A stretch of 64,000 nt of DNA from Methanofollis fontis (GTDB taxonomy: Archaea; Halobacteriota; Methanomicrobia; Methanomicrobiales; Methanofollaceae): NCBI RefSeq assembly GCF_004297185.1, contig NZ_PGCL01000003.1:310001-374000 (forward strand), read 5' to 3'. A program made the translations under genes and the position numbers. Shown one piece after another: positions 11,318 through 59,862 of this stretch (position 1 is the stretch's first letter; every line of letters begins with the position of its first letter). The notes under the pieces were generated by a model, which was not told the origin of the DNA, made no database searches, and saw only the letters and a program-made list of their open reading frames with translations.

Positions 11318-11321
11318 CGAA

Positions 11322-14361: not shown

Positions 14362-14736
14362 TCACAACCGCCCCCCCTCAGAGATAGCCATGAGCCGATA
14401 AAATGCGTAGATATTTGGTTTTCTCCCTTTTCCTTGTTGAAGTATATCCACAATGCCGTTGTCTGCCAGTTCCTTAAGGATCTTCGTCCCGCTCTCCTTT
14501 GGAATACCCGACACCCTGATGAAATCAGGCGTACTGAAGAAGATGGTTGCCGCACTTACTTTTGGGATATGCTCATTATGTGTCCCAGGTACACATTTTT
14601 CCAACGTATTTTGTGTACCAGTCACACATTTTTCTAACTTAATGATGTGTTCACGGGATATCTTGCCCGCATGCAGCATGCAAAAAACTCGATATTTCTC
14701 CTGAAGAACATCTGGACCGCCCTGCTCTGGATGCAT
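14362..14736 (-). CDS. Winged-helix protein resembling a Fic C-terminal domain
   Basis: 124 residues from an ATG with a GGAGAG site just upstream; a longer start at 14778 is less likely. The C-terminal part, STPDFIRVSGIPKESGTKIL followed by LADNGIVDILQQGKGRKPNI, is a winged helix-turn-helix of the kind that ends Fic-family proteins. The Fic catalytic HPFxxGNG motif is absent. The middle holds a direct repeat, LEKCVTGTQN/LEKCVPGTHN. It may be a free-standing regulator or the tail of a lost Fic gene. Confidence 0.5.
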   Translation of the reverse strand: MHPEQGGPDVLQEKYRVFCMLHAGKISREHIIKLEKCVTGTQNTLEKCVPGTHNEHIPKVSAATIFFSTPDFIRVSGIPKESGTKILKELADNGIVDILQQGKGRKPNIYAFYRLMAISEGGRL

Positions 14737-14813
14737 GTCTCTCCGGTGAGACCCGAGGGCGCGAACCATCATATTCACGCCTTCCGATTGGATTGCTGCT
14801 GTTCATGCTCCTG

Positions 14814-14968
14814 GCAACCGTTATCACTCCTGATACGCTACGTTTCCGTGAAACACGGGAGAGCCCTCACCATTGCGGCCACTCCTCTCATCACCATATT
14901 TTTTGCCGTTTCTGCAGGCTGCACCGGGCCCGTCCAGGAATCCACGGCTTCGCCGGCCCCCTCGCTCG
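14814..14968 (+). repeat. Left copy of hydrolase 5'-end duplication
   Basis: About 155 bases closely similar to 19,321-19,478, covering the upstream region and signal-peptide codons of the alpha/beta hydrolase at 19365. The right copy has a 10-base insertion at the start codon (ATGAACCATC). Similarity stops just after the lipobox region. The copies bracket a 4.35-kb AT-richer cassette. Confidence 0.75.
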
Positions 14969-15045
14969 CCACCCATGGGCCAGGCTCCGCCTCTCGCACC
15001 CATTTCACAGGTTATAGAAACCCCAAAAAATTGCCGCTCTACTAA
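14848..15045 (+). pseudogene. Truncated copy of lipoprotein hydrolase (signal peptide only)
   Basis: From a GTG at 14848 the frame encodes a 65-residue product whose first part, VSAGCTGPVQ preceded by a hydrophobic stretch, matches the signal peptide and lipobox of the hydrolase at 19365. After the lipobox, similarity ends and the frame runs into unrelated sequence and a stop. It is the broken left product of the duplication described at 14,814-14,968. Confidence 0.65.
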
Positions 15046-15215
15046 CCGGGCGTACACATATTCATCACAGGACTATGTGTCGCGGCACACTCGCCTGGAG
15101 GGAAAAAGTCAGTTGTTTAAGGTTGAGTTCAAAAAAAACGTGAAGGGACAATAAATTGATATTTAACATCAAATAATTATTATTTTGTTCAAGTCACCGC
15201 TGCATCTCAGGAATC

Positions 15216-17579: not shown

Positions 17580-17635
17580 ATTCCGGCGTCATGTCTCAAA
17601 CCTTCAAAATAGAATATTCCCGTGTCATTCTGTCA

Positions 17636-18028
17636 TTAATTGGAAAAATTCATGCTCTCTGTGGCAGAGGGGATATCTCCGGGCAGAATATAATCAGAGA
17701 TTATGTTCAGGGTAATCCTGGCGGCAACAAGGTCATCATCGCCTTTGAAACCGTCAATACCCATACTTTCTGCAAAACGGAACATTCTTTTTCTGTCGTT
17801 GATTAGAAATAAGCCAGTATCAGTTTGTGAACCTTTATCCTCAAATGTCGCTTCGAAGCAAGAGAAAGGGACATATCCCCCATGTAAAAACGAAAGATGA
17901 AGGAACTCAATAAGCTGCACATAAAACTGCGGAGGTTTAAAGCCAGCATCATCCCAGATGCCTCTGGTCTCCAGATCTTTTTCATCTCTGTGACGGTGAC
18001 AGCTACAGACGCTCATTTCTGTGTTCAT
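17636..18028 (-). CDS. Hypothetical protein upstream of the RND exporter
   Basis: 130 residues from the ATG at 18028 (MNTEMSVCSC); an upstream ATG at 18115 would add a basic segment with little protein character. CSCHRHRDEKD near the start could bind a metal. The middle (FYVQLIEFLHLSFLHGGYVP) and FLINDRKRMFRFAESMGIDG suggest a compact alpha/beta domain. The gene lies 56 bases before the exporter on the same strand, so both are probably one transcript. No family recognised. Confidence 0.6.
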   Translation of the reverse strand: MNTEMSVCSCHRHRDEKDLETRGIWDDAGFKPPQFYVQLIEFLHLSFLHGGYVPFSCFEATFEDKGSQTDTGLFLINDRKRMFRFAESMGIDGFKGDDDLVAARITLNIISDYILPGDIPSATESMNFSN

Positions 18029-18431
18029 TACAAACCTCATTAAGCCAAAACGCAATTTTAGAAGCCGAAAACGTATCCGGTTTTCCAGAACCTGACAAAT
18101 AACCAGAATAAACATTCAACGTCATAATTGCGACATTAAATATATTCCAGTTGTAATCTAACAGATTTCTCTGGACTTCATCATAAAATCAACCCGTCAG
18201 ATGATAATAGATGTCCAACTCCTGAAGTTATGATCCAAAAATCGTAAAAAAGGGATTTTTTTAATAAAAGCAGGTATTGCAGTATAGTTCACCTCTGTAC
18301 TTCCCCGGGGAAATCAATTAAAAATCCAATCAAAGGGCCTATCGCAACGTTTCGCTTTTTCAAATGTCCTGCTGCTGAAATTATATATCAATACGGATCC
18401 AATACGATTATTAAAACTCTTGGAGTTGTAA
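18029..18431. promoter_or_regulatory. Divergent promoter region, RND operon and TrmB gene
   Basis: AT-rich and non-coding. For the regulator, a TATA box TTATATAT lies at 18381-18388, followed by two direct AATACG copies at 18390-18395 and 18401-18406, a likely protein-binding site between TATA box and start codon. On the minus strand an AT box near 18,133-18,145 could serve the exporter operon. The layout fits local control of the exporter by the TrmB-family protein; this is inferred. Confidence 0.45.
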
Positions 18432-19181
18432 ATGCGAGAGACGACAATTAAAACCCTTAGAAGGCTTGGATTTACCGAATATGAAGCAAGGGCGTACATA
18501 TCACTCGTGGGTTTTGGAATGGCAACCGCCCGTGAAATTCATGAAACCAGCGGTGTTCCGCAGGGACGAATTTATTCGGTATTACGAAGTCTCTCTGACA
18601 AAAATTATATCGAAATCCAGAACGGAAATCCTTCATATTTCTATGCCGATAATCCCGGCGCAATACTCAACAAACTAAAGACAGAGATGAATAACTCAAT
18701 AAATGAATCGATAGAATATCTTTCAAATCTTCATCTCAACTCGAAACCGCCCTCTCCCATATGGGCTATTTCCTCGGAATGGGGCATTAAAAACAGAATA
18801 AAGACACTTATCCAGGGTGCAGACCGAGAGATTATTATTCTTGTTTATGACCCTTCCCTTCTCGGATGGATCCTGCCGGAATTAAAAAAAATTAAACGGA
18901 GAGTAAATATCGAGATCTATGCGAAAAACAAAGATGATTTTGCAGGAACCAATTTGAGAGTGACCGAATATCCAGAAAAAATGTACTCCATGATGGAAAA
19001 GGTCACCTCTATGGAAAAAAATGTTTATGGTGTCCACGAAGCCAAGATGAATCTGTTAATAGATGAGTCAACGGGCTTTTTTATAGGAAAAACGCAGGGA
19101 ACGGTTACAGGAGTGATTGCGCAGTCACCGCAGCTCGTATACACAATAAGGGCCTTTATGAAAATGCTTGGTGACGAATGA
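18432..19181 (+). CDS. TrmB-family transcriptional regulator
   Basis: 249 residues. The N-terminal winged helix (residues 1-75, LRRLGFTEYEARAYISLVGF then SGVPQGRIYSVLRSLSDKNY) is typical of archaeal TrmB proteins. A short coiled linker (about 80-100) follows, then an effector-binding region containing IWAISSEWGIKNRIKTLIQG and DREIIILVYDP, similar to the PLD-like regulatory domain of the family. TrmB proteins usually sense a small ligand and repress neighbouring transport genes. Divergence from the RND exporter suggests that as target. Confidence 0.88.
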   Translation: MRETTIKTLRRLGFTEYEARAYISLVGFGMATAREIHETSGVPQGRIYSVLRSLSDKNYIEIQNGNPSYFYADNPGAILNKLKTEMNNSINESIEYLSNLHLNSKPPSPIWAISSEWGIKNRIKTLIQGADREIIILVYDPSLLGWILPELKKIKRRVNIEIYAKNKDDFAGTNLRVTEYPEKMYSMMEKVTSMEKNVYGVHEAKMNLLIDESTGFFIGKTQGTVTGVIAQSPQLVYTIRAFMKMLGDE

Positions 19182-19320
19182 TTATTCATGAAGGTTCAAA
19201 ACCAGAACCTAGATGGAATTATATGATGAGAAGAAGATTTTAAGAAAATTCCATCTCAGCCAACATATCTGGCACCTGGAATGAGTGCGTCCGATGAGAT
19301 AAAAATCCCCCGGGACTTCC

Positions 19321-19478
19321 GCAACCGTTATCATTCCTGTTACGCTACGTTTCCATGAACCATCATGAAACACGGGAGAGCCCTCACCATCACGATCACT
19401 CTTCTCATCACTGTTTTGTTTGCCGTTTCTGCAGGCTGCACCGGCCCTGTTCAGCAACCTTCGGCTTCCCCTGCCGTC
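19321..19478 (+). repeat. Right copy of hydrolase 5'-end duplication
   Basis: Partner of 14,814-14,968. It covers the upstream leader and signal-peptide codons of the intact hydrolase gene. The two copies differ at scattered bases and by a 10-base insertion, so the duplication is not recent. Confidence 0.75.
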
Positions 19479-20735
19479 ACCGCGCCTGCCGCTGACGGCT
19501 CTTCACTCGTGTTTACGGACCAGGAGTTCGCCTTCGAGCTCAGGCGGACGATCGGCGCCTCGTATGCGGGAGAGGCCGATATCGGCGAGTGCCTCGCCAC
19601 TGCATCCAGGATCCAGGAAGGAGACTTCGAGAGCTGGTACACCGAATGGAACAGGACGGCGGACGCCTTCAGGGCCGCGGGTGACGGGAGCCTCGCGGCC
19701 GGGCACAGGGTTTCCGCAATGGAGGCATACTACCGGGCCGCAACATATTACCGCACGGCCGAGTTCTTCCTGCACGGCAATCCCGCCGACCCCCGCATCG
19801 TGGAGACCTGGAGCAAGAGCCGGGACGCATTCCGAGACGCCATCGCCCTCGATGTCGTCCCGTACGAGATCGTCGCCATCCCGTACGAGAACACGACGCT
19901 GCCGGGTTACTTCTACACCGTCGACGACTCTGGCATTTCCAGGCCGCTCCTCATCGTCCAGACCGGCTTTGACGGCTGCCAGGAGGAGCTCCACCCATAT
20001 GCAATGGAAGGGATCAGACGCGGCTACAACGTCCTGACATTCGAGGGTCCGGGCCAGGGCGAAGTGATCCGGGTCCAGCACATCCCGTTCCGTGCCGACT
20101 GGGAGAACGTGATCGCCCCTGTCGTGGACTATGCGGCGGGTCGGCCCGACGTCGACGAGGACCGGATCGCACTCTGGGGAATATCGCTCGGGGGCTACCT
20201 CGCCCCCCGCGGTGCCGCATATGAGCCCCGGATCACGGCGCTAGTGGCGGACGGAGGCACCTACGACGTCGGACAGAACCTGCTTCAGAACCTGCAGGAA
20301 GGCGGCGGAGCGCCCGCGAACCTGACGGAAGACGACCTGCAGGAATGGCTGCAGACAGATCCGGCGGAGTTCAATGATGCCATCCTCGGTGCCATGGCGC
20401 ATGATACCGGCACCCGCTGGCTGAACGAGAACGGGATGTTCGTCTTCAGTGCCGCCTCGCCGGCAGAGTTCTGGGCGAAGTGGATGGAGTTTTCCCTCGC
20501 CGGAATCGCCGAAGAGATACGGTGCCCCACGCTGGTCTGCGCCGGTGCGGCCGATCACTTCGACCCGGACGGGGTGCAGGCACAGGCACTCTATGACCAC
20601 CTCACCTGCGAGCGCGACCTCATGGTATTCTCCGACGACTACGGTGCCGGATCGCACTGCCAGCTCGGGGCGTTTGCCCAATCGTTTGCCGCCAAGTTCG
20701 ATTGGCTCGACGACCGGATGGGAATGAGCGGGTGA
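19365..20735 (+). CDS. Alpha/beta hydrolase lipoprotein
   Basis: 456 residues. An N-terminal hydrophobic signal ends in the lipobox VSAGC, so the protein is probably lipid-anchored outside the membrane. A helical region (about 60-150) precedes the hydrolase fold. The nucleophile is the Ser of LWGISLGGYLAPRG, the acid is likely Asp in GAADHFDPDG, and the His is in GAGSHCQLGA. The layout resembles FrsA/DUF1100-type esterase-peptidases. Substrate unknown. A second ATG ten bases before 19365 is out of frame and part of the small insertion that distinguishes this leader from the broken copy at 14,848. Confidence 0.85.
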   Translation: MKHGRALTITITLLITVLFAVSAGCTGPVQQPSASPAVTAPAADGSSLVFTDQEFAFELRRTIGASYAGEADIGECLATASRIQEGDFESWYTEWNRTADAFRAAGDGSLAAGHRVSAMEAYYRAATYYRTAEFFLHGNPADPRIVETWSKSRDAFRDAIALDVVPYEIVAIPYENTTLPGYFYTVDDSGISRPLLIVQTGFDGCQEELHPYAMEGIRRGYNVLTFEGPGQGEVIRVQHIPFRADWENVIAPVVDYAAGRPDVDEDRIALWGISLGGYLAPRGAAYEPRITALVADGGTYDVGQNLLQNLQEGGGAPANLTEDDLQEWLQTDPAEFNDAILGAMAHDTGTRWLNENGMFVFSAASPAEFWAKWMEFSLAGIAEEIRCPTLVCAGAADHFDPDGVQAQALYDHLTCERDLMVFSDDYGAGSHCQLGAFAQSFAAKFDWLDDRMGMSG

Positions 20736-48530: not shown

Positions 48531-48857
48531 GAGATATACAGAGATGGCGTTTCTCCGCTGATAAAGATAGCCGGACCTTCCGAAACGGTCCCGCCGCAAA
48601 AACCAGATCATTCCTGACCACCCCTTCCGGTGCACCGCACCTGAAAAACAAACAGATGCAGGCACAATGAGGACATTGAGGCATAAAGTCACCATTTTCT
48701 GCCAAATATGACAACATATCAATTTTCTTATATGATGGGGACCAAATACCAACCATATAGAGAAAATGCGGTTTATCTGCCCAGATAATGGCGGATAAAA
48801 ACATTTATGCTATAGATTGGGTTAAAGAGTTTTCATTATACGGACCGGAGACCTCCG
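48531..48857. promoter_or_regulatory. Divergent promoter region of the Eha operon
   Basis: AT-rich and non-coding. A TATA-like TTTATGCTATAG at about 48,803-48,814 could serve the plus-strand operon. Immediately before the first ATG, CGGAG-AC-CTCCG (48846-48857) is a perfect inverted repeat that contains the Shine-Dalgarno GGAG. It may bind a regulator or affect translation initiation. The AT box around 48,728-48,734 could serve the divergent transporter. Confidence 0.45.
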
Positions 48858-49343
48858 ATGCTCACCGATGTTCTGCAGATACCGGTTGCAGCCATTCTCT
48901 GCTGGCTGCTCTTCGTCGCCGTCGATATCTTCTTCAGACTGCCGGAAAGGGGTGGTGTGAAGGGAGCTTCGGCGATTGGACGCGCCATAGAGAAAGGGGG
49001 CGGATCACTCCCCGGCGGGACGATGATGGGCAACATCGTCTCCTCACCCGATGCTTCGGCCGGGACACTCCTCGCTGCCTGCGGCGTGTATGTTGCCGGA
49101 CTGCCAGGCGGGCTTGCAGCAGCGGTGCTCGTATTTATCGGGAACCGAATTTGCCATGATCCAGGATATGCCGGGACGACCGGCGCTGTTCTATCGAGCG
49201 TCATGGTCAGCGGTTTTGTGCTGCTCGGCTTCTCTGCTGAAAATTTCATCGCCGGGATGGTGATCGCCATTCTGACGATCCAGGGGCTTTCCCACCCGCA
49301 TGCAAGCAGAATCCTCGGGCGCATCTGGGGGTGGCGGAGTTGA
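48858..49343 (+). CDS. ehaB: Eha hydrogenase membrane subunit, EhaB-like
   Basis: 161 residues with four to five membrane helices and a glycine-rich loop GASAIGRAIEKGGGSLPGG. This loop and the position before EhaC fit EhaB, an integral membrane subunit of the energy-converting hydrogenase Eha. The complex uses ion motive force to drive ferredoxin reduction with H2. EhaA is not seen upstream, so the operon may start at EhaB or EhaA may be divergent in sequence. Confidence 0.7.
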   Translation: MLTDVLQIPVAAILCWLLFVAVDIFFRLPERGGVKGASAIGRAIEKGGGSLPGGTMMGNIVSSPDASAGTLLAACGVYVAGLPGGLAAAVLVFIGNRICHDPGYAGTTGAVLSSVMVSGFVLLGFSAENFIAGMVIAILTIQGLSHPHASRILGRIWGWRS

Positions 49344-49582
49344 TCGCCCTCTATGTCTGCGGTGCAATCGCACTCCTTGCCGCCGTGCGCACGATCATCG
49401 AGCCCGACACCTACCGGAAACTCCCGTACCTGAATGTGATGAACTTCGCGATCGCCGGACTGATCGTGCTGATCCTGAGCCATCCACTCTCCATTCTGGC
49501 TGCAGCGGCATATTTTGTCGGTTCGACCCTTGAGGCCAATGCGATCGCATCGGCGCGTGCGGAGGTGATGCAACATGATTGA
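49331..49582 (+). CDS. ehaC: Eha hydrogenase subunit EhaC (DUF2109)
   Basis: 83 residues with two to three membrane helices. RTIIEPDTYRKLPYLNVMNF is typical of the DUF2109 subunit. It begins at a GTG 12 bases inside the upstream gene; a TTG at 49340 is an alternative. The end overlaps ehaD by eight bases. Confidence 0.78.
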   Translation: MAELIALYVCGAIALLAAVRTIIEPDTYRKLPYLNVMNFAIAGLIVLILSHPLSILAAAAYFVGSTLEANAIASARAEVMQHD

Positions 49583-49811
49583 GTACCTACAGGTCGCGCT
49601 TGCCTTGATTACACTTATTGGAGCCCTTGGGACCGCTTTTTCACGTGATCCCTTCAGCAAACTGATCGCCCTCGGGGTGATGATCGGCGGCATCGTCCCC
49701 TTTATCGTGGGGCGGGGCTATCTCGACGTGGCCGTGGCCGTGGCCCTGATCGCACCGGTAACAACGATTTTTGTGCTCGCCATCACCGGGAGGTACGACA
49801 ATGCAGACTGA
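49575..49811 (+). CDS. ehaD: Eha hydrogenase subunit EhaD (DUF2108)
   Basis: 78 residues, two membrane helices with GTAFSRDPFSKLIALGVMIG between them, matching DUF2108, a small antiporter-related membrane subunit of Eha. It overlaps both neighbours, consistent with coupled translation of the membrane arm. Confidence 0.78.
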   Translation: MIEYLQVALALITLIGALGTAFSRDPFSKLIALGVMIGGIVPFIVGRGYLDVAVAVALIAPVTTIFVLAITGRYDNAD

Positions 49812-50037
49812 ACTCGCTCTCGGGCTCGCGGTGCTGATCATTGGGGCCGTCGCCGCCGCATTCCCGCGGCCGAAAAACTACCTCACCCGGATCATCAACC
49901 TCGAAATCCCGGCATGGGGACTGCTCCTGGTGATGCTCGCCTACGACGAAACACTGGCATTGCTCACCTTTATCGCCGTTACCGCGATATCGACCTTTGT
50001 CATGATCAGAGTGGTCGAACGGAGGAAAGCGGCATGA
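49801..50037 (+). CDS. ehaE: Eha hydrogenase subunit EhaE (DUF2107)
   Basis: 78 residues from the ATG at 49801. Two to three membrane helices with FPRPKNYLTRIINLEIPAWG, the signature segment of DUF2107. Starts inside the end of ehaD and its stop overlaps the start of ehaF by four bases. Confidence 0.78.
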   Translation: MQTELALGLAVLIIGAVAAAFPRPKNYLTRIINLEIPAWGLLLVMLAYDETLALLTFIAVTAISTFVMIRVVERRKAA

Positions 50038-50486
50038 TCATCAGCAGAATTTCAAAGATCCTTGCGGACTTCGATAACCTCTCGTTCCTGTATGCTACGC
50101 TCATCCTGGTCGGCATCGTCATCGGGCTCTTCACCCTCCCCGGTATCACCTACCACGGGGACGACCTCTACCCCAAGGCGATCGACCGCACGAGCAGCCT
50201 CGACCCCTATGACCGCGGGGGCGAACCCTTCGGGAACACAAGCGTTGCGGCGCAGTACCCCGAAAACTCACCGTACCTGGGCTATGTGACCGCCTACCTC
50301 ACGCCCTTCTCAGAGTTCCTTGCCGACACCACCCCACATCTCGGCACCACGATCGTCTCCCATCCTGGCGGCATCATCGACGAGATCCTGTACAACACAC
50401 GGGGGCTCGACACCGTCGTTGAAACCAGCATCCTCTTCACGGCATTTTCAATTGCCTCGTTCCTCTTCAGGAGGCGGGAGGGATGA
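50034..50486 (+). CDS. ehaF: Eha hydrogenase subunit EhaF (DUF2106)
   Basis: 150 residues: an N-terminal membrane helix, a large outward-facing segment (about 35-120) with TYHGDDLYPKAIDRTSSLDP, and a C-terminal helix ending in RRRE. This layout and the order after EhaE fit DUF2106. The soluble loop may cap the membrane arm. Overlaps the next gene by four bases. Confidence 0.78.
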   Translation: MIISRISKILADFDNLSFLYATLILVGIVIGLFTLPGITYHGDDLYPKAIDRTSSLDPYDRGGEPFGNTSVAAQYPENSPYLGYVTAYLTPFSEFLADTTPHLGTTIVSHPGGIIDEILYNTRGLDTVVETSILFTAFSIASFLFRRREG

Positions 50487-51079
50487 CGTCGTACTGGATC
50501 GTCCTCACGATCGTCCTGATCGCCACGGCAATCGCCTTTTCCGCCCTGCTCCGTGAGAATGACGATCTCCACCGGCTCCTGCTCACCGATCTCGCCGAGA
50601 TCGTCGGACTCACCATCATCGCCCTTGTAGCGACCGATCTCGCCGAGGCGCTGATCCTTCCGGGTCTTGTCGTCGGGATCTCTGAACTGATGGCCCTCTC
50701 AGAAGTGTATCTCGTCAAAGAAGGGCTGAAACAGGCACCAGAACGGCTGATGCACCTCGAGATCATGGACAGCGCTCCGGCAATCCTCGCGGCCGTGCTC
50801 GTTGTCTATGGGATCATCCTCTCTGGCTTCTCGGGCGGTGCGGTCGCAGGTACCGGCCTCCTCTTCTGGTTCTTCTGCAAGGGGCACGACGAGGCCTTCG
50901 CCTTGATTGAGACGGCAAGCGGTTACGCCTGGGTGCTCTGGATCGCGGCCTTCTTCATCTTCATGATCGCACCCTCATACTGGCTCTTTGCAGTGATGGT
51001 GGCAGGCGGTGCCATCCTCCTGAAGGTGATGGCCAAGATGGCCCTCGTGGGCACCATGCGGGGTGGAAAGCATGTTTGA
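50483..51079 (+). CDS. ehaG: Eha hydrogenase subunit EhaG (DUF2105)
   Basis: 198 residues with five to six membrane helices. LLTDLAEIVGLTIIALVATD and GISELMALSEVYLVKEGL carry acidic residues inside helices that could take part in ion transfer. Matches the DUF2105 membrane subunit by order and pattern. Its last codons overlap the start of ehaH. Confidence 0.78.
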   Translation: MTSYWIVLTIVLIATAIAFSALLRENDDLHRLLLTDLAEIVGLTIIALVATDLAEALILPGLVVGISELMALSEVYLVKEGLKQAPERLMHLEIMDSAPAILAAVLVVYGIILSGFSGGAVAGTGLLFWFFCKGHDEAFALIETASGYAWVLWIAAFFIFMIAPSYWLFAVMVAGGAILLKVMAKMALVGTMRGGKHV

Positions 51080-51728
51080 TCTTCCCGTCGAAGGGGTAGA
51101 ACTCCTGGCTATTGAGTTCGGCGACATTGTCAACTATTTCAGCATCTATACGGCGATGCTCTTCACCTTCGCCCTGCTTTTCACGCTACTGGCGATCATC
51201 AGTCTCCCGGAAAAACCGCTGGATATCGTCTTTGGAGGCGACGCCTATTATGCCAAGGAGATCCCGAAGGACCAGGTCAGGTTTCAGCGTTTCATGGCGA
51301 TCGCCTGCGGTCTTGCCACCCTCGGGGCGATGGTAAGCGGCGACATATTCAACTTCACTCTATTCAGCTCGATGATCGGGATCACAAACATCGGGATTGT
51401 CGCCGCAGTGCAGAACCGGCATGTCCTTGAAGCCGCCTACCAGTACGGGATTGTGGCGATGGTCGCTACCATCCCCCTCTTCGGCGGTGCGGCGATCGTG
51501 CTGGCGTCGACCGGCACCCTCTCCATCTGGGCGCTCGCCGGCGCAGCGGCCGTCCCCCTCATCGCAAAGATCTTTCTGGTGCTCGGGGTGATGGGCGAGG
51601 GGATGGCGCCGTTCTACATCGCAAAGGCGGAGATCACCCGTGCGCCCGGCGCACCCTATGTCCTCATGATCCATGTGAGTTCCCTGCTCCTGTTCCTGCG
51701 AATCGTGGAGATCGTACTGACGATATGA
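51072..51728 (+). CDS. ehaH: Eha hydrogenase subunit EhaH, antiporter-like
   Basis: 218 residues from the ATG at 51072; a GTG three codons earlier is possible. Six membrane helices resembling a shortened Mrp/complex I antiporter subunit, with GEGMAPFYIAKAEITRAPGA near the C-terminus as the charged loop-helix. It probably forms part of the ion path that powers ferredoxin reduction. Confidence 0.78.
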   Translation: MFDLPVEGVELLAIEFGDIVNYFSIYTAMLFTFALLFTLLAIISLPEKPLDIVFGGDAYYAKEIPKDQVRFQRFMAIACGLATLGAMVSGDIFNFTLFSSMIGITNIGIVAAVQNRHVLEAAYQYGIVAMVATIPLFGGAAIVLASTGTLSIWALAGAAAVPLIAKIFLVLGVMGEGMAPFYIAKAEITRAPGAPYVLMIHVSSLLLFLRIVEIVLTI

Positions 51729-51937
51729 TGCCTATGAAAAAACAAAATGTCCTGATGATGGCAGGTTGCTCCGGTGCGGCCAGTGTTGTAGCATCTGTTG
51801 CGGGGAGCCTTGGCTTTATCCCGTTGTGGGCCTCGGAAGTGCTGATTATCGTCATTTTCCCTATATTTCTTGTTTTACTTGGGCTCTGGTGGAATGCATC
51901 GAAAAAAGAGGGGGATACCCCGTTCATAGGGTTCTGA
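51725..51937 (+). CDS. ehaI: Small Eha membrane subunit, EhaI-like
   Basis: 70 residues with two membrane helices (MMAGCSGAASVVASVAGSLG and VLIIVIFPIFLVLLGLWW). The position between EhaH and EhaJ fits EhaI (DUF2104-type). Start ATG overlaps the preceding stop; an ATG three codons downstream is equally good. Confidence 0.68.
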   Translation: MMPMKKQNVLMMAGCSGAASVVASVAGSLGFIPLWASEVLIIVIFPIFLVLLGLWWNASKKEGDTPFIGF

Positions 51938-51942
51938 TCTAT

Positions 51943-52785
51943 ATGATAGAATACCTGATCTTTGCTATCTTTGCCGGCCTCCTCCTTCACGGCATCCACC
52001 GGAAAGCGATCGCACGGATTCAGGGACGGCCCGGACCACCGATCTGGCAGGAGATCCTTCATGTCCTGAAATTCTCCTTCAAACAGACCTGGATCCCGAA
52101 GACCGCAAGCCAGGTTCTCTTCGTCGCCGTAGTGCCAATCGCCATCGGCATATGGAGCACCGCCTTCTTCGTGCTCCTCTCAGGGGAGAGCCTGCTCCTC
52201 CTTTTCGGAGTCTACATGATCCACAAGATCGTCGAGCACGGTCTCGGTCTCTCGTCGGGTTCGCCCTACGGCAAGTTCGGCGCCATCAGGTCGGTGATGT
52301 CGGCGGCCTCCGAGATACCGCTCTTCGCCACGATCGCTGCGGTCTATCTGGTCACCGATTCCCTGATGATCTCCGATATCCTCGCCTGGCAGGAGGTGCA
52401 CGGCCCCCTCCTGCTGGCGATATGGCCGGCGGCCGCCGCCCTTTACATCGTCGTCCTGGCAAAGATGCATTACAGCCCCTTTGCCGTCATCGAGAGCAAG
52501 GAAATCGTAAGCGGGAACGTCACCGAGCACTTCGGCGTCTGGCGTGCAGGACTTGAGGCGGCCTTCGCCCTCAAGACCTTCGTGCTCATCTACGCCTTCA
52601 TCCTGATCTTCATCGGACCGTTGCCCCTGTTGGCGCTGGCCGTGGCCATGCTCCTTGTGCTGCTGTCCCTCTCGTTTATCTGTGCCATCACGCCGATGCT
52701 CTCGCCCTTTGATACTGTCACCATCCAGATCGGGGTGGCGGGCGTGATTGTGGTCTATGTCCTCGCCATGGGGGTGTTATTATGA
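51943..52785 (+). CDS. ehaJ: Eha hydrogenase subunit EhaJ (NuoH-like)
   Basis: 280 residues with about eight membrane helices. RKAIARIQGRPGPPIWQEIL after the first helix is the conserved cytosolic loop of the NuoH/HycD family, and ASEIPLFATIAAVYLV follows. This subunit connects the hydrogenase module to the ion-pumping arm. The ATG at 51943 lies six bases after the previous stop. Confidence 0.87.
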   Translation: MIEYLIFAIFAGLLLHGIHRKAIARIQGRPGPPIWQEILHVLKFSFKQTWIPKTASQVLFVAVVPIAIGIWSTAFFVLLSGESLLLLFGVYMIHKIVEHGLGLSSGSPYGKFGAIRSVMSAASEIPLFATIAAVYLVTDSLMISDILAWQEVHGPLLLAIWPAAAALYIVVLAKMHYSPFAVIESKEIVSGNVTEHFGVWRAGLEAAFALKTFVLIYAFILIFIGPLPLLALAVAMLLVLLSLSFICAITPMLSPFDTVTIQIGVAGVIVVYVLAMGVLL

Positions 52786-53030
52786 GTGTAATCCAGAATG
52801 CAATTGCCGGTGGAGCCGCAGTCTACGCCCTCATCCTGCTCATCCAGGCGTTAGAGCAGCCGTCTGTATCTGTCGGGGCGCTTGCGGCGGCACTGCTGCT
52901 GGCGGTTGCCGGAAGTCTGCTCTGGACGGGCAACGGGCACCGCCTCAAAACCATGGAGATGACACTGCTCTGGGGTTGTGTCGGGCTATTCGGGATCTAC
53001 GGACTGCTTTCCCTGGGAGGGATAGTATGA
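52782..53030 (+). CDS. Small Eha membrane subunit, EhaK/EhaL-like
   Basis: 82 residues, three short membrane helices separated by a GNGHRLKTMEM loop. It sits between EhaJ and EhaM and overlaps both by four bases. Size and place fit one of the minor subunits EhaK or EhaL; I cannot tell which. Confidence 0.62.
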   Translation: MSVIQNAIAGGAAVYALILLIQALEQPSVSVGALAAALLLAVAGSLLWTGNGHRLKTMEMTLLWGCVGLFGIYGLLSLGGIV

Positions 53031-53416
53031 CTGAATATCTCTATGAAAAGGATCTGCGCCCCCTGAAATACAACGTGATCATAGGAAAACGTCAGGACCA
53101 GACGGTCAGAGAAATGGCCGCCCTTCTTGGCATCAGAATTCAGAAACTCCGCCTCCTTCTCATCGAACGGCTTGACATGTCCAATCTTGAGAACATGCCT
53201 GCCCGGTTCGAGGCCGGACTCTCCGCCATGGACAGCAAAGACCCTATCGCGGATGCCCTCGGCAGAGACCTCTTCGTCCGCTATGTCCAGGTCTTTACCA
53301 AATCGGAGATGGAGGCCGCATATGCCAGGGCACGATCCCTTGCCGACGGCGGACTCGCCCATGATGATGCGGTCGGGGAAGGCAAGGCAATGCTCAGGGA
53401 AGTGATATCACCATGA
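53027..53416 (+). CDS. ehaM: Eha hydrogenase subunit EhaM (DUF1959)
   Basis: 129 residues, soluble and helical, without Cys motifs. [20 protein letters not shown] and [20 protein letters not shown] are typical of DUF1959. Likely a peripheral cytosolic subunit that bridges the catalytic subunits and the membrane part. Coupled by ATGA overlaps at both ends. Confidence 0.8.
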
Positions 53417-53871
53417 CTGGAATGCTCCAGAAATTTAAAAATGCCGTGCGTTCCCGCTCAATTCATGTCGCATACGTGGACACAGGTTCGTGCAACGGCT
53501 GCGACATCGAGGTGCTCGCCTGCCTCTCGCCGCGCTACGACCTTGAGCAGTACGGCATCTATGTCCACAACAACCCGCGGGAGGCAGACGTCCTGCTGGT
53601 GATCGGTTGCGTCACTCCCCAGTGGGAAGACAAACTCCCGGCGATCTGGGAGAAGATCCCCGAACCGAAGGTGGCGATCGCCATCGGCAACTGCCCGGTA
53701 TCGGGCTGTGTCTTCAACCGCGAGGGGAGTTATGTGAACCCGCCTGCATCCAAATATATCCCTATCGCCGCAAATGTGCCGGGATGCCCGCCAAGACCGA
53801 CCGAAATCATCAGAGCGGTCCTTTCGCTTGCGCCAACAGTATTCAAAGACTACGAGGAGAAAAAACCATGA
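53413..53871 (+). CDS. ehaN: Eha hydrogenase small subunit
   Basis: 152 residues of the [NiFe] small-subunit/NuoB family. [13 protein letters not shown] (C27, C30), GNCPVSGC (C94) and NVPGCPPRP (C125) provide the four ligands of the proximal [4Fe-4S] cluster. It passes electrons from the Ni-Fe site to ferredoxin-type subunits. Overlaps the large-subunit gene by four bases. Confidence 0.9.
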
Positions 53872-54953
53872 AAAGAACGGTCGATGTTGCAGTGCCCCTC
53901 GGACCGGTCCACCCCTGCTGGAAAGAGCCAATCAGGATCAAATGCGAAACAAAGGGGGAACTCGTCTATAACACCGAGGTGGAACTCGGCTACATGAAGA
54001 AAGGGATCGAACGGATCATGCAAGGTCGCCCCTGGCAGGAGGTGATGTTCCTTGCTGAACGGGTATGCGGCATCTGTTCCGTTGTCCACAATATGGTCTT
54101 CACCGAGACGATGGAGGCGATCAGCGGGATCGCACCGCCTGAACGTGCGGCCCTGCTGCGGGTGATCGTCAACGAACTCGACCGCATCCAGAGCCATCTC
54201 ATCGCCAACTTCTCATATTGCTATACCATCGAGCATGAGACCATTGGGATGTATCTCCTCAATGAACGCGAGCATGCCATGGACATGATCGAGATGATCA
54301 CCGGCAACCGGGTGAACACCGCCTACATGATCCCGGGCGGGGTCCGCTACGACCTGCAGCCAGAGGACGAGAACACTCTCAGGACGACCCTCGATCTGCT
54401 CGAACGGAACATCCGCCGGTATACTCAGATGTTTGAAGACGGACCGATGATCGGGCTGCGAAGCCGGGGCGTTGGTGTGCTCACCAGAGACGAAGCCCTC
54501 GAAGCCCATGCAGTCGGACCGACGGCGCGGGCAAGCGGGATCGATGTTGATATGCGCACATCTCACCCGACCTACCAGAAACTGGACTTCAAACCGATCA
54601 TCCGGACCGAGTGCGACAATTACGCCAGGATCATGGTCAGGTTCGAGGAGATCATCCAGTCCATCAATCTGATCAGGAAGGCGCTTTCAATGAAGTCCGA
54701 CGGGCTGGTGAGGGGTGGCGGCATCTGCCAGGGTGGTGAGATGCGATACTCGGGTGAGGCGCCCAGGGGAGAACTCACCTACTTTGTGAAGGCCGACCGC
54801 TACGGCAGGGTGGAGGAGATCGCCATTCAGACTCCATCCATCATGAACATTGACGCATGCTCACACTACATGCTGAAAAGGGCCAGATCCATCGCTGACG
54901 TGACCTCGTCCTTCATCAGTTCCGACCCCTGTGTGGCATGCACTGAGAGGTAA
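53868..54953 (+). CDS. ehaO: Eha hydrogenase large subunit
   Basis: 361 residues of the [NiFe] large-subunit/NuoD family. The four nickel ligands are in ERVCGIC (C67, C70) and near the end in [10 protein letters not shown] (C355, C358). No C-terminal extension follows, so no protease processing appears necessary, unlike classical [NiFe] hydrogenases. The protein oxidises H2 to feed low-potential ferredoxin. Internal motif [20 protein letters not shown] resembles the NuoD/HycE active-site loop. Confidence 0.92.
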
Positions 54954-54956
54954 AAG

Positions 54957-55562
54957 ATGGGTCTGTCAATCGTCTGGTACGTCAGAGAATTCCTGCGCGG
55001 GGAATGGATCAAGAAATTCTTCCTGGTAAAGACCGCTCCACTCGAAGATCCACCCTACTTCAGGGGATATCCGGCGCTGACCGGGAAGGAGTGCACCCAT
55101 TGCCTCTCCTGCATGATGATCTGCCCGACACCGGGAGCGATCGAGGTCGTCCGGGAGGGCGAGACATGGGTGCCGAAGATCTATCCGGGCCACTGCATCA
55201 GGTGCGGCCTCTGTGTCGAGGCCTGCCCTGAGGACGTGCTCGACGCCGGGCGCGTCCTCGACACCCAGCACACCGACGGCACCTCGATCTCGGTCCGCTA
55301 TCAGGTGACGGTCAACCCGGACACCTGCGTACGCTGCGGCAACTGCGTGGTCGCCTGCCCGGTGAACAAGGAGGCCGACCCGCAGCTCGGGGCGAGCGGC
55401 ACCTCGGCAAACGATGATGTGATCATGCGCATCCACCGCGGCAACCTCTGGGTGCTCCACGACGAGAAGTGCACCGGGTGCAAGACCTGTGAGAGCGTCT
55501 GCCCGACCAATGCGATCAGGATCGCCCGCGTCGCCGAGGGGCGGCAGGGGGTGGACGAATGA
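54957..55562 (+). CDS. Four-cluster ferredoxin between Eha and Fwd genes
   Basis: 201 residues with four CxxCxxCxxxCP motifs: CTHCLSCMMICP, CIRCGLCVEACP, CVRCGNCVVACP and CTGCKTCESVCP, each binding a [4Fe-4S] cluster. The N-terminal 30 residues resemble the NuoI-type lead that docks to a hydrogenase small subunit. It follows ehaO by three bases and overlaps fwdD by four bases, so it could be a shortened EhaP/Q or an FwdF/G-like wire between the two enzymes. Confidence 0.88.
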   Translation: MGLSIVWYVREFLRGEWIKKFFLVKTAPLEDPPYFRGYPALTGKECTHCLSCMMICPTPGAIEVVREGETWVPKIYPGHCIRCGLCVEACPEDVLDAGRVLDTQHTDGTSISVRYQVTVNPDTCVRCGNCVVACPVNKEADPQLGASGTSANDDVIMRIHRGNLWVLHDEKCTGCKTCESVCPTNAIRIARVAEGRQGVDE

Positions 55563-55954
55563 GGTTTGTCTTCAATACCGGGCGGACGGCCGCACAGGGT
55601 GCCGGGCTCGAGCGCAAGACCTCTGAGGAGTATCAGAAGGCGACCTCAGTCGCCAGGATGAACCCGGTGGACATGATGGACCTGGAGATCGAGGACGGCG
55701 AACGGCTACGCGTCAGCGGTCCGGCAGGAACGGTGGTGCTCAGGGTGGAGGCGAACGACGGCATCCCGCGGGGGACGGTGTTTGTCCCCCTCGGCCCCTA
55801 CGCCAATGCCGTTCTGGACGGCGAGACCCATGGCACCGGCATGCCCGACTACAAGTCGGTCAGTGTGGAGATCGAACCCACCGACGATCCGGTACCGACG
55901 ATCCCGGCACTGATGGAAGGGATCGGGGGCGTCGCCCTCAGGAGGGAGGAGTGA
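55559..55954 (+). CDS. fwdD: Formylmethanofuran dehydrogenase subunit D
   Basis: 131 residues, a molybdopterin-dinucleotide-binding beta barrel: TGRTAAQGAGLERKTSEEYQ at the start, VARMNPVDMMDLEIEDGERL and PRGTVFVPLGPYANAV. It completes the cofactor pocket of FwdB, which is separate here. Formylmethanofuran dehydrogenase carries out the first step of CO2 reduction to methane. Confidence 0.9.
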   Translation: MRFVFNTGRTAAQGAGLERKTSEEYQKATSVARMNPVDMMDLEIEDGERLRVSGPAGTVVLRVEANDGIPRGTVFVPLGPYANAVLDGETHGTGMPDYKSVSVEIEPTDDPVPTIPALMEGIGGVALRREE

Positions 55955-57249
55955 TGATCCACAGAGATATGGTCTGCCCGTTCTGCGGATGCCTCTGCGA
56001 CGACCTGGTGGTGGAGACCGAGGACGGACAGGTGGTGCAGGTGGACAACGCCTGCACACTCGGCAGCAACAAGATGATGGGGGCATGGCAGCACCGTCTA
56101 AAAAGCCCGGTGATGCGGGACGGCGGGGGGTGGCGGGACACCACCTATGAGGAGGCATGCGAGTATGCCGCCGGCGTGCTCCTGGACGCCGACCGACCCC
56201 TGATGTACGGCTGGTCGAGCACCCAGGGTGAGGCGCAGGGCATCGGCGTTTCCATGGCCGAACTGCTCGGCGGCGTTATCGATTCCACCACCTCGGTCTG
56301 CCACGGTCCCTCGATCCTGGCCATCCAGGAGGTCGGTCACCCGGGGTGCACCCTGGGACAGGTGAAAAACCGCGCAGACCTCGTCATCTACTGGGCATGC
56401 AACCCGACCGAGGCGCATCCCCGGCACATGAGCAGGTACACCACCTATGCCGACGGCTTTTTCATGGAAAACGCCTTCAGGGACAGAAAGCTCATCGTCG
56501 TCGATGTCAGGAAGAGCGATACCGCCTCGATCGCCGACGAGTTCATGCAGGTGAAACCGGGCGGCGATTATGCGGTGCTCTCGGCATTGCGGGCGATCGT
56601 GCGGGGCCGCGCCGATGTGGTGCCAAAGACGGTGGCCGGCGTCACGAAGGAGCAGCTGGTGCGGGTGGCGGCGCTGTGCAAGGAGGCCCGGTTCGGCGCC
56701 CTCTTCTTTGGCGTCGGGCTCACGATGGCCCCAGGCAAGTACAAGAATGTCAGGAACGCCATCGAACTGGTCGACGAACTCAACCGCCATACCAAATGGA
56801 CCCTGACACCCCTCCGCGGCCACTACAATGTCTATGGCTCAAACGAAGTCTTCACCTGGATGACCGGGTACCCGTATGCCGTCGATTTTTCCCGGCAGAT
56901 CGCCTTCTACAACCCGGGCGAGACAACGGCGGTGGACATCCTGGCGCGGCAGGAGTGCGATGCCTGCCTGATCGTGGCGTCTGATCCAGGCGCCCATTTC
57001 CCAAAACAATGCCTTGAACACCTTGCAGAGATCCCGACCGTGCTCATCGATCCGATGCAGACGGCCACCACGCCCCTCTGCCGGTGCCAGATACCGACGG
57101 CGGTGACCGGGATGGACGCCTCCGGCACCGCCTACCGGATGGATGGGGTGCCCATCCACCTGAAGAAGTTTCTGGACCTCGGCTATCCGACCGATACCGA
57201 GATCATCGGCCGGATCTTCAAGCAGGTGAAGGAGGTGAAACACCCATGA
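55954..57249 (+). CDS. fwdB: Formylmethanofuran dehydrogenase subunit B
   Basis: 431 residues from the ATG at 55954 (GTG at 55951 is possible). The N-terminal CPFCGCLCDD with a later Cys in DNACTLG binds a [4Fe-4S] cluster. STTSVCHGPSILA has the Cys that ligates molybdenum or tungsten, so this is the cysteine and not the selenocysteine form. The subunit reduces CO2 to formate, which passes to FwdA. It is separate from the FwdD barrel, as in other methanogens. Confidence 0.92.
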   Translation: MIHRDMVCPFCGCLCDDLVVETEDGQVVQVDNACTLGSNKMMGAWQHRLKSPVMRDGGGWRDTTYEEACEYAAGVLLDADRPLMYGWSSTQGEAQGIGVSMAELLGGVIDSTTSVCHGPSILAIQEVGHPGCTLGQVKNRADLVIYWACNPTEAHPRHMSRYTTYADGFFMENAFRDRKLIVVDVRKSDTASIADEFMQVKPGGDYAVLSALRAIVRGRADVVPKTVAGVTKEQLVRVAALCKEARFGALFFGVGLTMAPGKYKNVRNAIELVDELNRHTKWTLTPLRGHYNVYGSNEVFTWMTGYPYAVDFSRQIAFYNPGETTAVDILARQECDACLIVASDPGAHFPKQCLEHLAEIPTVLIDPMQTATTPLCRCQIPTAVTGMDASGTAYRMDGVPIHLKKFLDLGYPTDTEIIGRIFKQVKEVKHP

Positions 57250-58946
57250 ACGAACTGCTGATCAAAAACGCCTTTGTGATCGATCCGATCAACAACATCA
57301 CCGGCGAACAGATGGACCTCGCCGTCCGCGACGGCCGGATCGTGGAGGACGTCGGGGCGAACGCCGAGGTGATCGATGCCGGCGGGTGTCTCACCCTGCC
57401 GGGTGGCATCGATTCCCATACTCATGTCTGCGGCACCAAGGTGAACTTCGGGCGTTATATGAGCCCTGAGGACATGCGGGCCGGCAGGGAGGCGCGAAGG
57501 GGGGTGAAACACGCCACATCAGGCTATTCGGTCCCGACGACCTATGCAAACTCCTACCGCTATGCCATCATGGGCTACACCACCCTGCTGGAGGGGGCAA
57601 TGGCGCCCCTGGAGGCGCGGCACACCCATGAGGAGTTCTCGGCCACCCCGCTCCAGGACATGATGGCCAACACCCTCTTCGACGGCAACTGGGGGGTGAT
57701 GGAGGCGATCCGGGACGGCGATACCGAACGCGCCGCCGCCATCGTCGGATGGACCATCTCGGCCGTCAAGGGCTTCGGGATCAAGATCACCAATCCGGGC
57801 GGCACCGAGGCCTGGGGGTGGGGCAAGGACGTCACCTGCATCAGGGACCCGGTCCCCTATTTCGAGGTGACACCGGCCGAGATCATCGAGACGCTGATCC
57901 GCTCGTGCGAGATGCTCCGCCTCCCCCACTCGGTCCACCTCCACTGCAACAACCTGGGCAAACCGGGCAATTACGGCTGCACCATGGAGACCTTCAACCT
58001 GGTGCCTGACCTGAACGATAAACGCCAGACGCTGTATGCCACCCATGTCCAGTTCCACAGCTACGGGGGATCGGGCTGGAAGGACTTCTGCTCAAAGGCC
58101 GAACCGGTTGCCGGACTCGTGAACAACCGCCCGCAGATCGTCATCGATATGGGGCAGGTGATGTTCGGCAAGACCACGACGATGACCGCCGACGGCCCGA
58201 TGGAGTTCAACCTCTACCGCCTCCACCACAACAAGTGGTCCAACCACGATGTGGAGCTGGAGACCGGGTCCGGGATCATCCCGGTGCTCTACCGCAGGAA
58301 GAACCTGGTGAACTCGATCATGTGGGCGATCGGGCTTGAACTGGCGCTCCTTGTCGAGAACCCCTGGCAGTGCATGCTCACGACCGATAACCCGAACGGT
58401 GCCCCCTTCGTGAAGTATCCGGAGATCATCGCCCTGCTGATGAGCAAAAAGTATCGGGACGCGGAGTTTGCCACCGTCCACCCGGAAACCGGGTCGAGGA
58501 CGGTGCTCCCCTCCCTTGAGCGCGAACTGGACTGGAACGAGATCGCCGTCATGACGCGGGCCGGACAGGCGAAGGCGCTCGGGATCACCGATATCGGCAA
58601 GGGGCACCTCGGTCTGGGCGCCGAGGCCGACATCGCCGTCTATCCCCTCAAGGTCGGGGAGATCGATCCGGCAAAGGAGTATGAGCAGGTGATCGAGGGC
58701 TTCTCAAAGGCGAAGTGGACGATCAAGCGCGGCCGACCGATGGCGCGGGACGGCGAGATCCTGGTCCACGGCGAGAACACCACGATCTGGGCGGACCCGG
58801 TGATCCGCCCTGACCGCGACATTGCACAGGACCCCGATTTCTGCGAGATGTTCAACCACTGGTATTCGGTGCGGATGAGCAACTACCCGGTGCAGGACGA
58901 ATATCTCCAGAGAAACCTGCGTATGCAGAGCGAGGCAGACCTATGA
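57246..58946 (+). CDS. fwdA: Formylmethanofuran dehydrogenase subunit A
   Basis: 566 residues of the amidohydrolase superfamily. GGIDSHTHV (H58, H60), the Lys in KGFGIKITNPGG, HLHCNN and TTDNPNGAP supply the binuclear metal site. It condenses formate with methanofuran to formylmethanofuran. The start overlaps the fwdB stop by four bases and the end overlaps fwdC, so equal subunit synthesis is likely. Confidence 0.93.
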   Translation: MNELLIKNAFVIDPINNITGEQMDLAVRDGRIVEDVGANAEVIDAGGCLTLPGGIDSHTHVCGTKVNFGRYMSPEDMRAGREARRGVKHATSGYSVPTTYANSYRYAIMGYTTLLEGAMAPLEARHTHEEFSATPLQDMMANTLFDGNWGVMEAIRDGDTERAAAIVGWTISAVKGFGIKITNPGGTEAWGWGKDVTCIRDPVPYFEVTPAEIIETLIRSCEMLRLPHSVHLHCNNLGKPGNYGCTMETFNLVPDLNDKRQTLYATHVQFHSYGGSGWKDFCSKAEPVAGLVNNRPQIVIDMGQVMFGKTTTMTADGPMEFNLYRLHHNKWSNHDVELETGSGIIPVLYRRKNLVNSIMWAIGLELALLVENPWQCMLTTDNPNGAPFVKYPEIIALLMSKKYRDAEFATVHPETGSRTVLPSLERELDWNEIAVMTRAGQAKALGITDIGKGHLGLGAEADIAVYPLKVGEIDPAKEYEQVIEGFSKAKWTIKRGRPMARDGEILVHGENTTIWADPVIRPDRDIAQDPDFCEMFNHWYSVRMSNYPVQDEYLQRNLRMQSEADL

Positions 58947-59713
58947 GGATCATTCTGACAATGCGCCCGCGTAAAAACCCGAAGATACCGATCGAAGCCG
59001 AGATGATCGTCCCATCACTGCTGATGAAGGGGGATGACGTCACGGTATGGGAGGGAAACCGCGAACGGCGGCTGGACGAGGTCTTCGAGGTCGCCATCGA
59101 AGGGGAGGCGTCATCTCCGGCAGACGTGGAGGTGGTGCTGCGCGGTGACACCGCACGCGTGAAGCGTATCGGCGAGTACATGGACGGCGGGCAGATCACC
59201 GTCGAAGGCGACATCGGGATGCATTGCGGAAATTTCATGGAGGCCGGCACCATTGAGGTGATGGGCAATGCCGGCGGCTGGCTCGGGCGTGAGATGCGTG
59301 GCGGCACGATCATCTGTCGGGGCAATGCCGGTCACTACTGTGCATCCGGCTACCGCGGCGAGAAGAAGGGAATGACCGGCGGCAGAATAGAGGTCTTTGG
59401 AAATGCAGGCGATTTTGTCGCCGAATACCTCACCGGCGGCGAGGTGTTTGTGCACGGCAACTGCGGCGACATGCCGGGTGTGGAGATGCATGGCGGGACA
59501 CTCACCATCAGCGGCGACTGCTCCCGCCCCTGCGGAAATATGACCAGCGGCACCTGCACGGTATTCGGCTGCGCATACGGGATGATGCCGACCTTTGCCC
59601 TGCAAGGAGAAGAAATCGCCTCCGATGGAGAAAAGATTCATTCATTCACCGGAGATGTCGCAAACAGAGGAAAGGGAAACCTTTTCGTGAGGCGCTATCA
59701 ATATCTCGAGTAA
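58943..59713 (+). CDS. fwdC: Formylmethanofuran dehydrogenase subunit C
   Basis: 256 residues with a repeated G-x-x-x-x-x-x-G-N-A/C-G pattern, for example GTIEVMGNAGGWLGREMRGG and GRIEVFGNAGDFVAEYLTGG, which builds the right-handed beta helix typical of FwdC and of the glutamate synthase alpha C-terminal domain. It is a scaffold subunit that holds FwdA and FwdB together. Its TAA overlaps an ATG for a small zinc-ribbon protein. Confidence 0.92.
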   Translation: MRIILTMRPRKNPKIPIEAEMIVPSLLMKGDDVTVWEGNRERRLDEVFEVAIEGEASSPADVEVVLRGDTARVKRIGEYMDGGQITVEGDIGMHCGNFMEAGTIEVMGNAGGWLGREMRGGTIICRGNAGHYCASGYRGEKKGMTGGRIEVFGNAGDFVAEYLTGGEVFVHGNCGDMPGVEMHGGTLTISGDCSRPCGNMTSGTCTVFGCAYGMMPTFALQGEEIASDGEKIHSFTGDVANRGKGNLFVRRYQYLE

Positions 59714-59862
59714 TGATCAGGCACGAATGCGGTTACGAGGAACCCGCCTACTGCAGAAAATGTGGGCGCCCCCTCGAATACGATCCTCGCCGGGGCATAT
59801 ACTGTCCCCACTGCGGCCGTCAGGTCACAATGCTCTGCCCCCAATGCGGGAAGCGATGGTGA
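59713..59862 (+). CDS. 49-residue triple zinc-ribbon protein after fwdC
   Basis: ATG at 59713 overlaps the fwdC stop (TAATG). The product has YCRKCG, IYCPHCG and MLCPQCGKRW, three CxxC pairs, plus HECG near the start, so it could hold one or two zinc ions or an iron centre. The dense Cys spacing and coupling to fwdC make chance unlikely. I know of no described Fwd or Eha partner of this size; it could help metal insertion or assembly, which is speculation. Confidence 0.65.
   Translation: MIRHECGYEEPAYCRKCGRPLEYDPRRGIYCPHCGRQVTMLCPQCGKRW

Follow-up and report, generated by a model that had tools for sequence, protein, structure and literature searches.

The gene run at positions 48858-59862 of a 64,000-nucleotide stretch of Methanofollis fontis (contig NZ_PGCL01000003.1, here C3:310001-374000; hereafter the window) encodes subunits of an Eha-family membrane [NiFe]-hydrogenase, a ferredoxin and a formylmethanofuran dehydrogenase (Fwd), in that order. 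The ferredoxin at the joint between the two enzymes is composed of two modules, a hydrogenase-type module (NuoI/MbhN/HycF) followed by an Fwd-type module resembling FwdG, the electron-donating subunit of Fwd. The cluster is probably, though by no means securely, an Eha hydrogenase equipped with a Fwd of its own, in which the ferredoxin serves as a fixed wire rather than a free carrier and which tops up the first step, CO2 reduction to formylmethanofuran. Linkage of eha with fmd/fwd genes, and a role for it, were proposed in 2009 for Methanocorpusculum labreanum, Methanoculleus marisnigri and Methanospirillum hungatei (PMC2686161), and a model with two Fwd enzymes and two ferredoxins followed in 2017 for Methanocorpusculum parvum (PMC5563889). 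To go by the available portions of both sources, the eha-fwd genes of these species share neighborhood and proposed role with the window cluster, so that the neighborhood and the idea of Eha serving Fwd are already known. The two-module make-up of the joint protein appears to be new; it is undescribed in the available passages of both papers, and no NuoI-FwdG fusion was found in the literature titles and abstract openings searched, with most subscription journals and supplements outside that coverage.

The run extends from the start of ehaB (48858) to the 3' end of a 49-amino-acid (aa) zinc-ribbon gene (59862) and comprises 19 intact open reading frames, all on the + strand: ehaB to ehaK, ehaM, ehaN, ehaO, the 16-cysteine ferredoxin, fwdDBAC and the zinc-ribbon gene. 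Its 18 junctions measure -17 to +5 bases, the +5 applying if ehaJ starts at ATG 51943 rather than CTG 51934. The ferredoxin gene (54957-55562) begins 3 bases past ehaO and overlaps fwdD by 4 bases, while the zinc-ribbon gene overlaps the fwdC stop by 1 base. An earlier reading of this DNA made without database searches (the sequence-only reading) had placed Eha, a four-cluster ferredoxin and fwdDBAC in tight succession with the ferredoxin exactly at the joint, and both points are borne out. The genome comprises 2.36 Mb on 22 contigs and is 98.5% complete. The features are as follows.

48797..48809, +: putative TATA-like box about 50 bases 5' of ehaB; AAAnnTTTAT aligned in 7/7 congeneric genomes compared, window included
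48858..49343, +: ehaB, assigned by position as the first cluster gene in relatives; without a family match
49331-49582, +: ehaC (PF09882, 2e-29)
49575-49811, +: ehaD (PF09881, 8e-21)
49801-50037, +: ehaE (PF09880, 4e-29)
50034-50486, +: ehaF (PF09879, 2e-57)
50483-51079, +: ehaG (PF09878, 3e-71)
51063..51728, +: ehaH, antiporter-like subunit (PF10125, 6.5e-97)
51725..51937, +: ehaI, assigned by conserved position; without a family match
51934..52785, +: ehaJ, NuoH-like membrane subunit (PF00146, 8e-29); start CTG 51934 or ATG 51943
52782..53030, +: ehaK, assigned by conserved position; without a convincing family match
53027..53416, +: ehaM; 45-row profile matches 1NXH (MTH396) at E 7e-19, single sequence matches PF09218 at 2e-4, below cut-off
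53413..53871, +: ehaN, NuoB-like [NiFe] small subunit (PF01058, 2e-27)
53868..54953, +: ehaO, [NiFe] large subunit (PF00346 and PF00374); RVCGIC at 65, DPCVAC at 353
54957..55286, +: joint ferredoxin residues 1-110, NuoI/MbhN/HycF-type module, clusters 1-2 (split profile A3)
55281..55562, +: joint ferredoxin residues 109-201, FwdG-type module, clusters 3-4 (split profile A4 and model fold)
55559..55954, +: fwdD (NF042908, 7e-33, 113 of 175 bits and so under cut-off; PF01568 over cut-off)
55951..57249, +: fwdB, tungsten/molybdenum CO2-reducing subunit with Cys117-His (TIGR03129, 594 bits, cut-off 328)
57246..58946, +: fwdA, amidohydrolase making formylmethanofuran (TIGR03121, 792 bits, cut-off 393)
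58943..59713, +: fwdC (TIGR03122, 245 bits, cut-off 131)
59713..59862, +: 49-aa zinc-ribbon gene, closing the run but judged to lie outside the unit

The cluster was compared with 57 relatives fetched around ehaH, 56 of which lie on contigs that extend to the joint and one on a contig that is too short. Profiles were built from 50 of the 56 relatives plus the window (A1), from 44 of the 56 plus the window (A2), and, for the N and C halves of the joint protein, from the first 26 rows of A1 (A3 and A4). The joint protein contains 16 cysteines arranged as four CxxCxxCxxxC motifs, of which 14 are invariant in the 51 rows and one further cysteine fails once, and its 51-row profile retrieves FwdF, FwdG and complex-I-type chains. 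The likeness to NuoI/MbhN/HycF spans residues 1-108 and that to FwdG residues 110-193. The N-half profile matches HycF (2e-9), MBS subunit N (4e-9), many NuoI chains and MbhN (8e-7). The C-half profile aligns without gaps to 9sfi_U (2e-21), an 80-aa "4Fe-4S binding protein" that is probably the FwdG of the 9sfi complex, and matches the FwdG of 5T5I (5t5i_G) at 9e-17; as single sequences against 5t5i_G, the window C half scores 7e-13 and the FwdG of the genome's own hdr operon, taken as a yardstick, 1e-11. In an AlphaFold2 model of the joint protein (pLDDT 86, pTM 0.65), residues 114-193 superpose on 80 of the 81 residues of 5T5I FwdG with a Z of 12.1, the next unrelated fold reaching 9.7, and a Foldseek search with the model places FwdF, FwdG and NuoI at the top among the matches listed. 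The protein following ehaO in outgroup family f19 (G303) is 103 aa long with 8 cysteines and corresponds to the N half only, its best PDB match being MbhN (2e-11). Profiles, fold and this one-module homologue favor a two-module wire. Each of the four outgroup genomes has one FwdB over cut-off, so the FwdG half does not simply track the presence of Fwd. An apparent natural split of the wire at one locus (L082) was discarded as a probable frameshift, six congeners carrying the wire intact.

Gene order around the joint was found to be far more regular than chance allows, as ehaO is followed by the ferredoxin in 56/56 relatives and a fwd gene comes next in 49/56 (fwdD in 45, and fwdA in four, all of the genus Methanocorpusculum). 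The junction between wire and fwdD is at most 20 bases in 44 of 46 loci (window included), and a single TATA-like box lies 5' of ehaB in the seven congeneric genomes aligned, internal promoters not having been searched for. In M. labreanum, only fwdA and fwdC stand at the eha site, the eha-type FwdB being fused to FwdD elsewhere. The remaining seven relatives have no fwd gene next to the wire, and the tight operon is thus not an obligatory linkage. In five of these seven genomes a fwdDBAC block and an hdr-type set meet tail to tail; G111 has fwdD and fwdB in tandem after an hdr-type set, plus a BD-fused copy next to fwdA at another site, and G118 has a BD-fused copy next to fwdA. The six unfused unlinked FwdB copies form one clade (100/100), and the unlinked and BD-fused FwdBs group inside the eha-type clade. 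In several genera, FwdB and FwdD share a single frame of 576-598 codons (L104, L107, L108, L109 and L116; also L041 and L042), a further kind of FwdB within the eha-type clade.

Eha and the eha-type FwdB are retained together inside the class. Of the 135 genomes with a completeness of at least 90%, both are present in 107, both absent from 27, Eha alone is found in one and FwdB alone in none, so that 134/135 agree; in the sole exception (G199) the contig stops inside the wire gene. The wire profile gives no match at 1e-20 in any of the 27 Eha-less genomes and is positive in 5/5 controls. Across all 232 genomes, 153 have both, 52 have neither but another FwdB, 10 have neither and no FwdB, 12 have Eha without an eha-type FwdB (two of them without any FwdB) and five have an eha-type FwdB without Eha, every discordant genome except G199 being less than 90% complete. 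Eha was scored as ehaH below E 1e-50 (165 genomes; 173 at 0.001, 169 over cut-off), with eight genomes at E 1e-8 to 3e-5 dropped, two of which (G164 and G192) are counted among the 27 with neither. The FwdB types were divided at E 1e-150, a value chosen after the data had been seen; no genome falls between 1e-143 and 1e-150, and one that is 79% complete lies at 1e-150. The assignment of G128 (1e-158) to "both" is doubtful, as the eha locus fetched from it shows only B-H and its FwdB is long-branched. On that contig (L125, G128:C128), ehaB-H are present with no J-O over the next 11 kb and the long-branched FwdB on the same contig; its Eha is possibly decaying or rearranged. Since the 27 Eha-less genomes include members of five genera (g1, g2, g30, g34 and g36) whose other members retain Eha, at least five separate losses of Eha are likely to have occurred, as judged from genus membership rather than a species tree. 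The stronger part of the co-retention argument is that both components are kept even in lineages where they are unlinked. The eha-type FwdB was discarded as a phylum-wide marker for Eha, and co-occurrence is claimed inside the class only, because Eha-less genomes (at 1e-30) outside it possess FwdBs of up to 55% identity.

Membership of the Eha family is indicated by the presence of EhaH (PF10125) and the membrane proteins EhaC-G in conserved order; the domain-of-unknown-function families PF09882, PF09881, PF09880, PF09879, PF09878 and PF10125 are taken to be EhaC-H, chiefly in view of their order. EhaO keeps both Ni-binding CxxC motifs (65 and 353) in 56/56 relatives. No EhaA, EhaL or EhaP-T was recognized in the cluster, although small divergent membrane proteins may escape detection. 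FwdA, FwdB and FwdC pass their NCBIfam cut-offs, while the FwdD domain passes PF01568 only, and Cys117-His of FwdB, in the motif SVCHGPS, aligns with the active-site Cys-His of the tungsten FwdB 5t5i_B. MTH396 would be EhaM, to judge from counting along the MTH384-404 range of PMC3087415.

A second fwd set is encoded on contig C1, in the order fwdG-fwdF-hdrC-hdrB-hdrA-mvhD-fwdDBAC (hdrB and hdrC named by position and size), giving the genome two FwdBs over cut-off. The genome also has a VhuA/MvhA-like large subunit (402 bits, under the cut-off of 800, the next being FrhA at 202), FrhA, FrhG and FdhA over their cut-offs, and a third energy-converting-type set taken to be Ech. The sequence-only reading had named a fwd paralogue elsewhere, carrying the main flux, as a finding that would speak against it; such a paralogue is present, and it would carry most of the flux. 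The solved complex of formate dehydrogenase, heterodisulfide reductase (Hdr) and Fmd from M. hungatei (7BKB) contains a FwdB that is one of three non-eha copies in strain JF-1 (G197): three peptides of the 7BKB chain are encoded by this reading frame and by no other in the fetched loci. The eha-linked copy was accordingly rejected as the 7BKB subunit. Because the second set of M. fontis lies in an hdr operon and 7BKB uses a non-eha copy, the main route is probably Hdr-bound, with Eha-Fwd as an ion-driven supplement. All three non-eha fwdB copies of JF-1 (L115) lie inside 20 kb, every one accompanied by a fwdD; the eha-linked copy brings the FwdBs of this genome to four. The idea that the eha-linked FwdB is specially tungsten-like was dropped: its scores are 498 bits against 5T5I and 400 against 7BKB, but an M. 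hungatei FwdB of the hdr-type clade reaches 544 against 5T5I.

No separate fwdF or fwdG was found within the cluster (48858-59862), whereas the hdr-linked set has both, which favors a built-in wire. A more specific proposal, plausible but held only tentatively, is of a single, permanent complex at the membrane that unites Eha, the fused NuoI-FwdG wire and FwdDBAC; it would resemble a formate hydrogenlyase in reverse, with ion inflow driving H2-dependent fixation of CO2 to formylmethanofuran without a diffusible ferredoxin, and would work in one cell beside an Hdr-bound Fwd. On the favored reading as such, the N half of the wire would dock on EhaN/EhaJ, as NuoI, MbhN and HycF do in their own complexes, and the C half on FwdB/FwdD, as FwdG does, and the wire would be dedicated to this Fwd. 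Electrons from H2 oxidized at EhaO would travel via EhaN and the two halves of the wire, NuoI-like first and FwdG-like second, to the FwdB cluster, ion inflow via the membrane subunits would lower their potential enough for CO2 reduction on FwdB, and FwdA would trap the product as formylmethanofuran. The main flux would run through the second Fwd set together with FwdFG, HdrABC and MvhD, and Eha-Fwd would supplement it when bifurcation falls short.

The strongest competitor, which we consider unlikely but worth serious attention, is that the two enzymes share regulation but no wire: Eha, with its NuoI-type subunit, would feed a general ferredoxin pool on which the linked Fwd draws, and linkage would serve matched expression only. 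Several observations count against a fixed wire. The seven relatives that keep the wire beside eha with fwd elsewhere, spread over four genera of one family, fit a shared pool, as does outgroup family f26 (G355 and G484), where a wire with both halves has no adjacent fwd; conversely, outgroup G303 has a FwdB though its wire homologue lacks the FwdG half. The module assignment is blurred by the likeness of dicluster ferredoxins to one another: the N-half profile scores multi-cluster polyferredoxins (MvhB 7e-15, FwdF 1e-11) above the NuoI types, and among PDB chains the C half scores highest with FwdF of 7BKB (4e-27, via several repeats), not with FwdG. The FmdG of 7BKB is also much closer to the hdr-operon FwdG (3e-41) than to the wire C half (6e-9). 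VIA-align with the model returns no NuoI chain among the 50 matches listed, outside which a family may still match, and superposes the N half, at Z of about 8, on ferredoxin domains, that of HdrA among them. The FwdG match is thus one of sequence and fold and the NuoI match mainly one of sequence and context, which weakens the case for a wire and strengthens that for a shared pool. At Cys49, the second cysteine in the first cluster motif, 17/51 rows have A, E, S, Q or H instead, though the window keeps the cysteine; such a pattern is known from [3Fe-4S] or non-Cys-ligated clusters. Co-loss alone is weak evidence, as neighboring genes can vanish in one deletion, and outside the class FwdBs of up to 55% identity occur without Eha. 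A pool would also agree with the description, in the available part of PMC6019823, of the Eha of obligate CO2 reducers as supplying reduced ferredoxin in an anaplerotic role. The C half nevertheless matches FwdG end to end, Eha and the eha-type Fwd stay together even where unlinked, and neither fwdF nor fwdG is present as a separate gene in the cluster, all of which speak against a shared pool. The Eha-to-Fwd electron route through the ferredoxin proposed in the sequence-only reading accordingly gains from the two-module protein, the co-retention within the class and the single TATA-like box, and loses from a linkage that is not obligatory.

It is also conceivable, though improbable, that a wired unit runs backward, oxidizing formylmethanofuran and passing electrons through the wire to Eha to make H2 and pump ions. 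Fwd and energy-converting hydrogenases are reversible, and formate hydrogenlyase, whose subunits are kin to EhaO and the N half of the wire, produces H2. No sequence feature, however, favors the reverse direction, and we know of no net supply of formylmethanofuran in obligate CO2 reducers. Least credible of all is the 2009 proposal (PMC2686161) that formylmethanofuran is supplied mainly by Eha-Fwd, in place of Hdr bifurcation: two of the three Methanomicrobiales in the available part of that paper lack the F420-non-reducing hydrogenase, but M. fontis has the hdr-mvhD-fwd operon with fwdF and fwdG, the VhuA/MvhA-like hydrogenase, Frh and FdhA, Eha is absent from 27/135 near-complete genomes, the solved M. 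hungatei complex joins Hdr to a non-eha Fmd, and by established bioenergetics ions would be spent on every CO2. Where the sequence-only reading had left the choice between an anaplerotic and a replacement route, the former, as ion-driven CO2 reduction, fits best.

The arrangement can be set beside several known systems. The Methanothermobacter EhaA-T (PMC3087415) have the EhaC-H, J, M, N and O families in common with the window, the order being that of PMC2686161, and the available text describes an eha operon with 6- and 10-cluster polyferredoxins (EhaP and EhaQ) that is separate from fwdHFGDACB; the window cluster has a four-cluster wire and linked fwd genes instead. EhaM is given as absent in the available part of PMC2686161 (2009), is listed for M. 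parvum in that of PMC5563889 (2017), and is found in the window, and the accessible text of PMC9635834 mentions "use of different ferredoxins" between Eha clusters. In E. coli formate hydrogenlyase (7Z0S), a membrane [NiFe]-hydrogenase is connected by fixed iron-sulfur subunits to a molybdopterin enzyme acting on CO2/formate, as proposed for the window cluster; EhaO resembles HycE (5e-42) and the N half of the wire HycF (2e-9). The window cluster differs in having FwdBD with FwdA and FwdC instead of FdhF, and its expected direction is CO2 reduction; as neither an FdhF-type formate dehydrogenase nor a HycB-type subunit was found in it, it would work like formate hydrogenlyase without being a member. 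The 7BKB complex (M. hungatei Fdh-Hdr-Fmd) and Mvh-Hdr-Fwd resemble the proposed unit in that low-potential electrons are handed directly to Fwd, via FwdF/FwdG-type subunits, but they are driven by bifurcation in a soluble Hdr and use another fwd paralogue, whereas the window set is proposed to be ion-driven and at the membrane.

If the wired arrangement is correct, such cells would have two separately driven entry points for CO2, one via the ion gradient and one via bifurcation, and the cluster would be an archaeal CO2-fixing counterpart to formate hydrogenlyase; it would also account for some lineages shedding the whole set at once. The wire itself is one small protein whose halves can be probed apart.

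The zinc-ribbon gene that closes the run was rejected as a member of the unit: its homologue stays near cofE in the Eha-less genomes G089 and G134. The 49-aa Cys-rich protein (window 59713-59862; L121 and L123) occurs near cofE with or without eha-fwd, and a homologue lies within the fetched stretch of 31/57 relatives. In outgroup G303, a second [NiFe]-hydrogenase-like large subunit (L119, 2189-4003, +) is convergent with the eha cluster. Positions 1-20000 of the window have a G+C of 0.43-0.51 over most of their length (0.56-0.62 at 10001-14000), against 0.52-0.65 in the remainder, and may possibly be foreign DNA.

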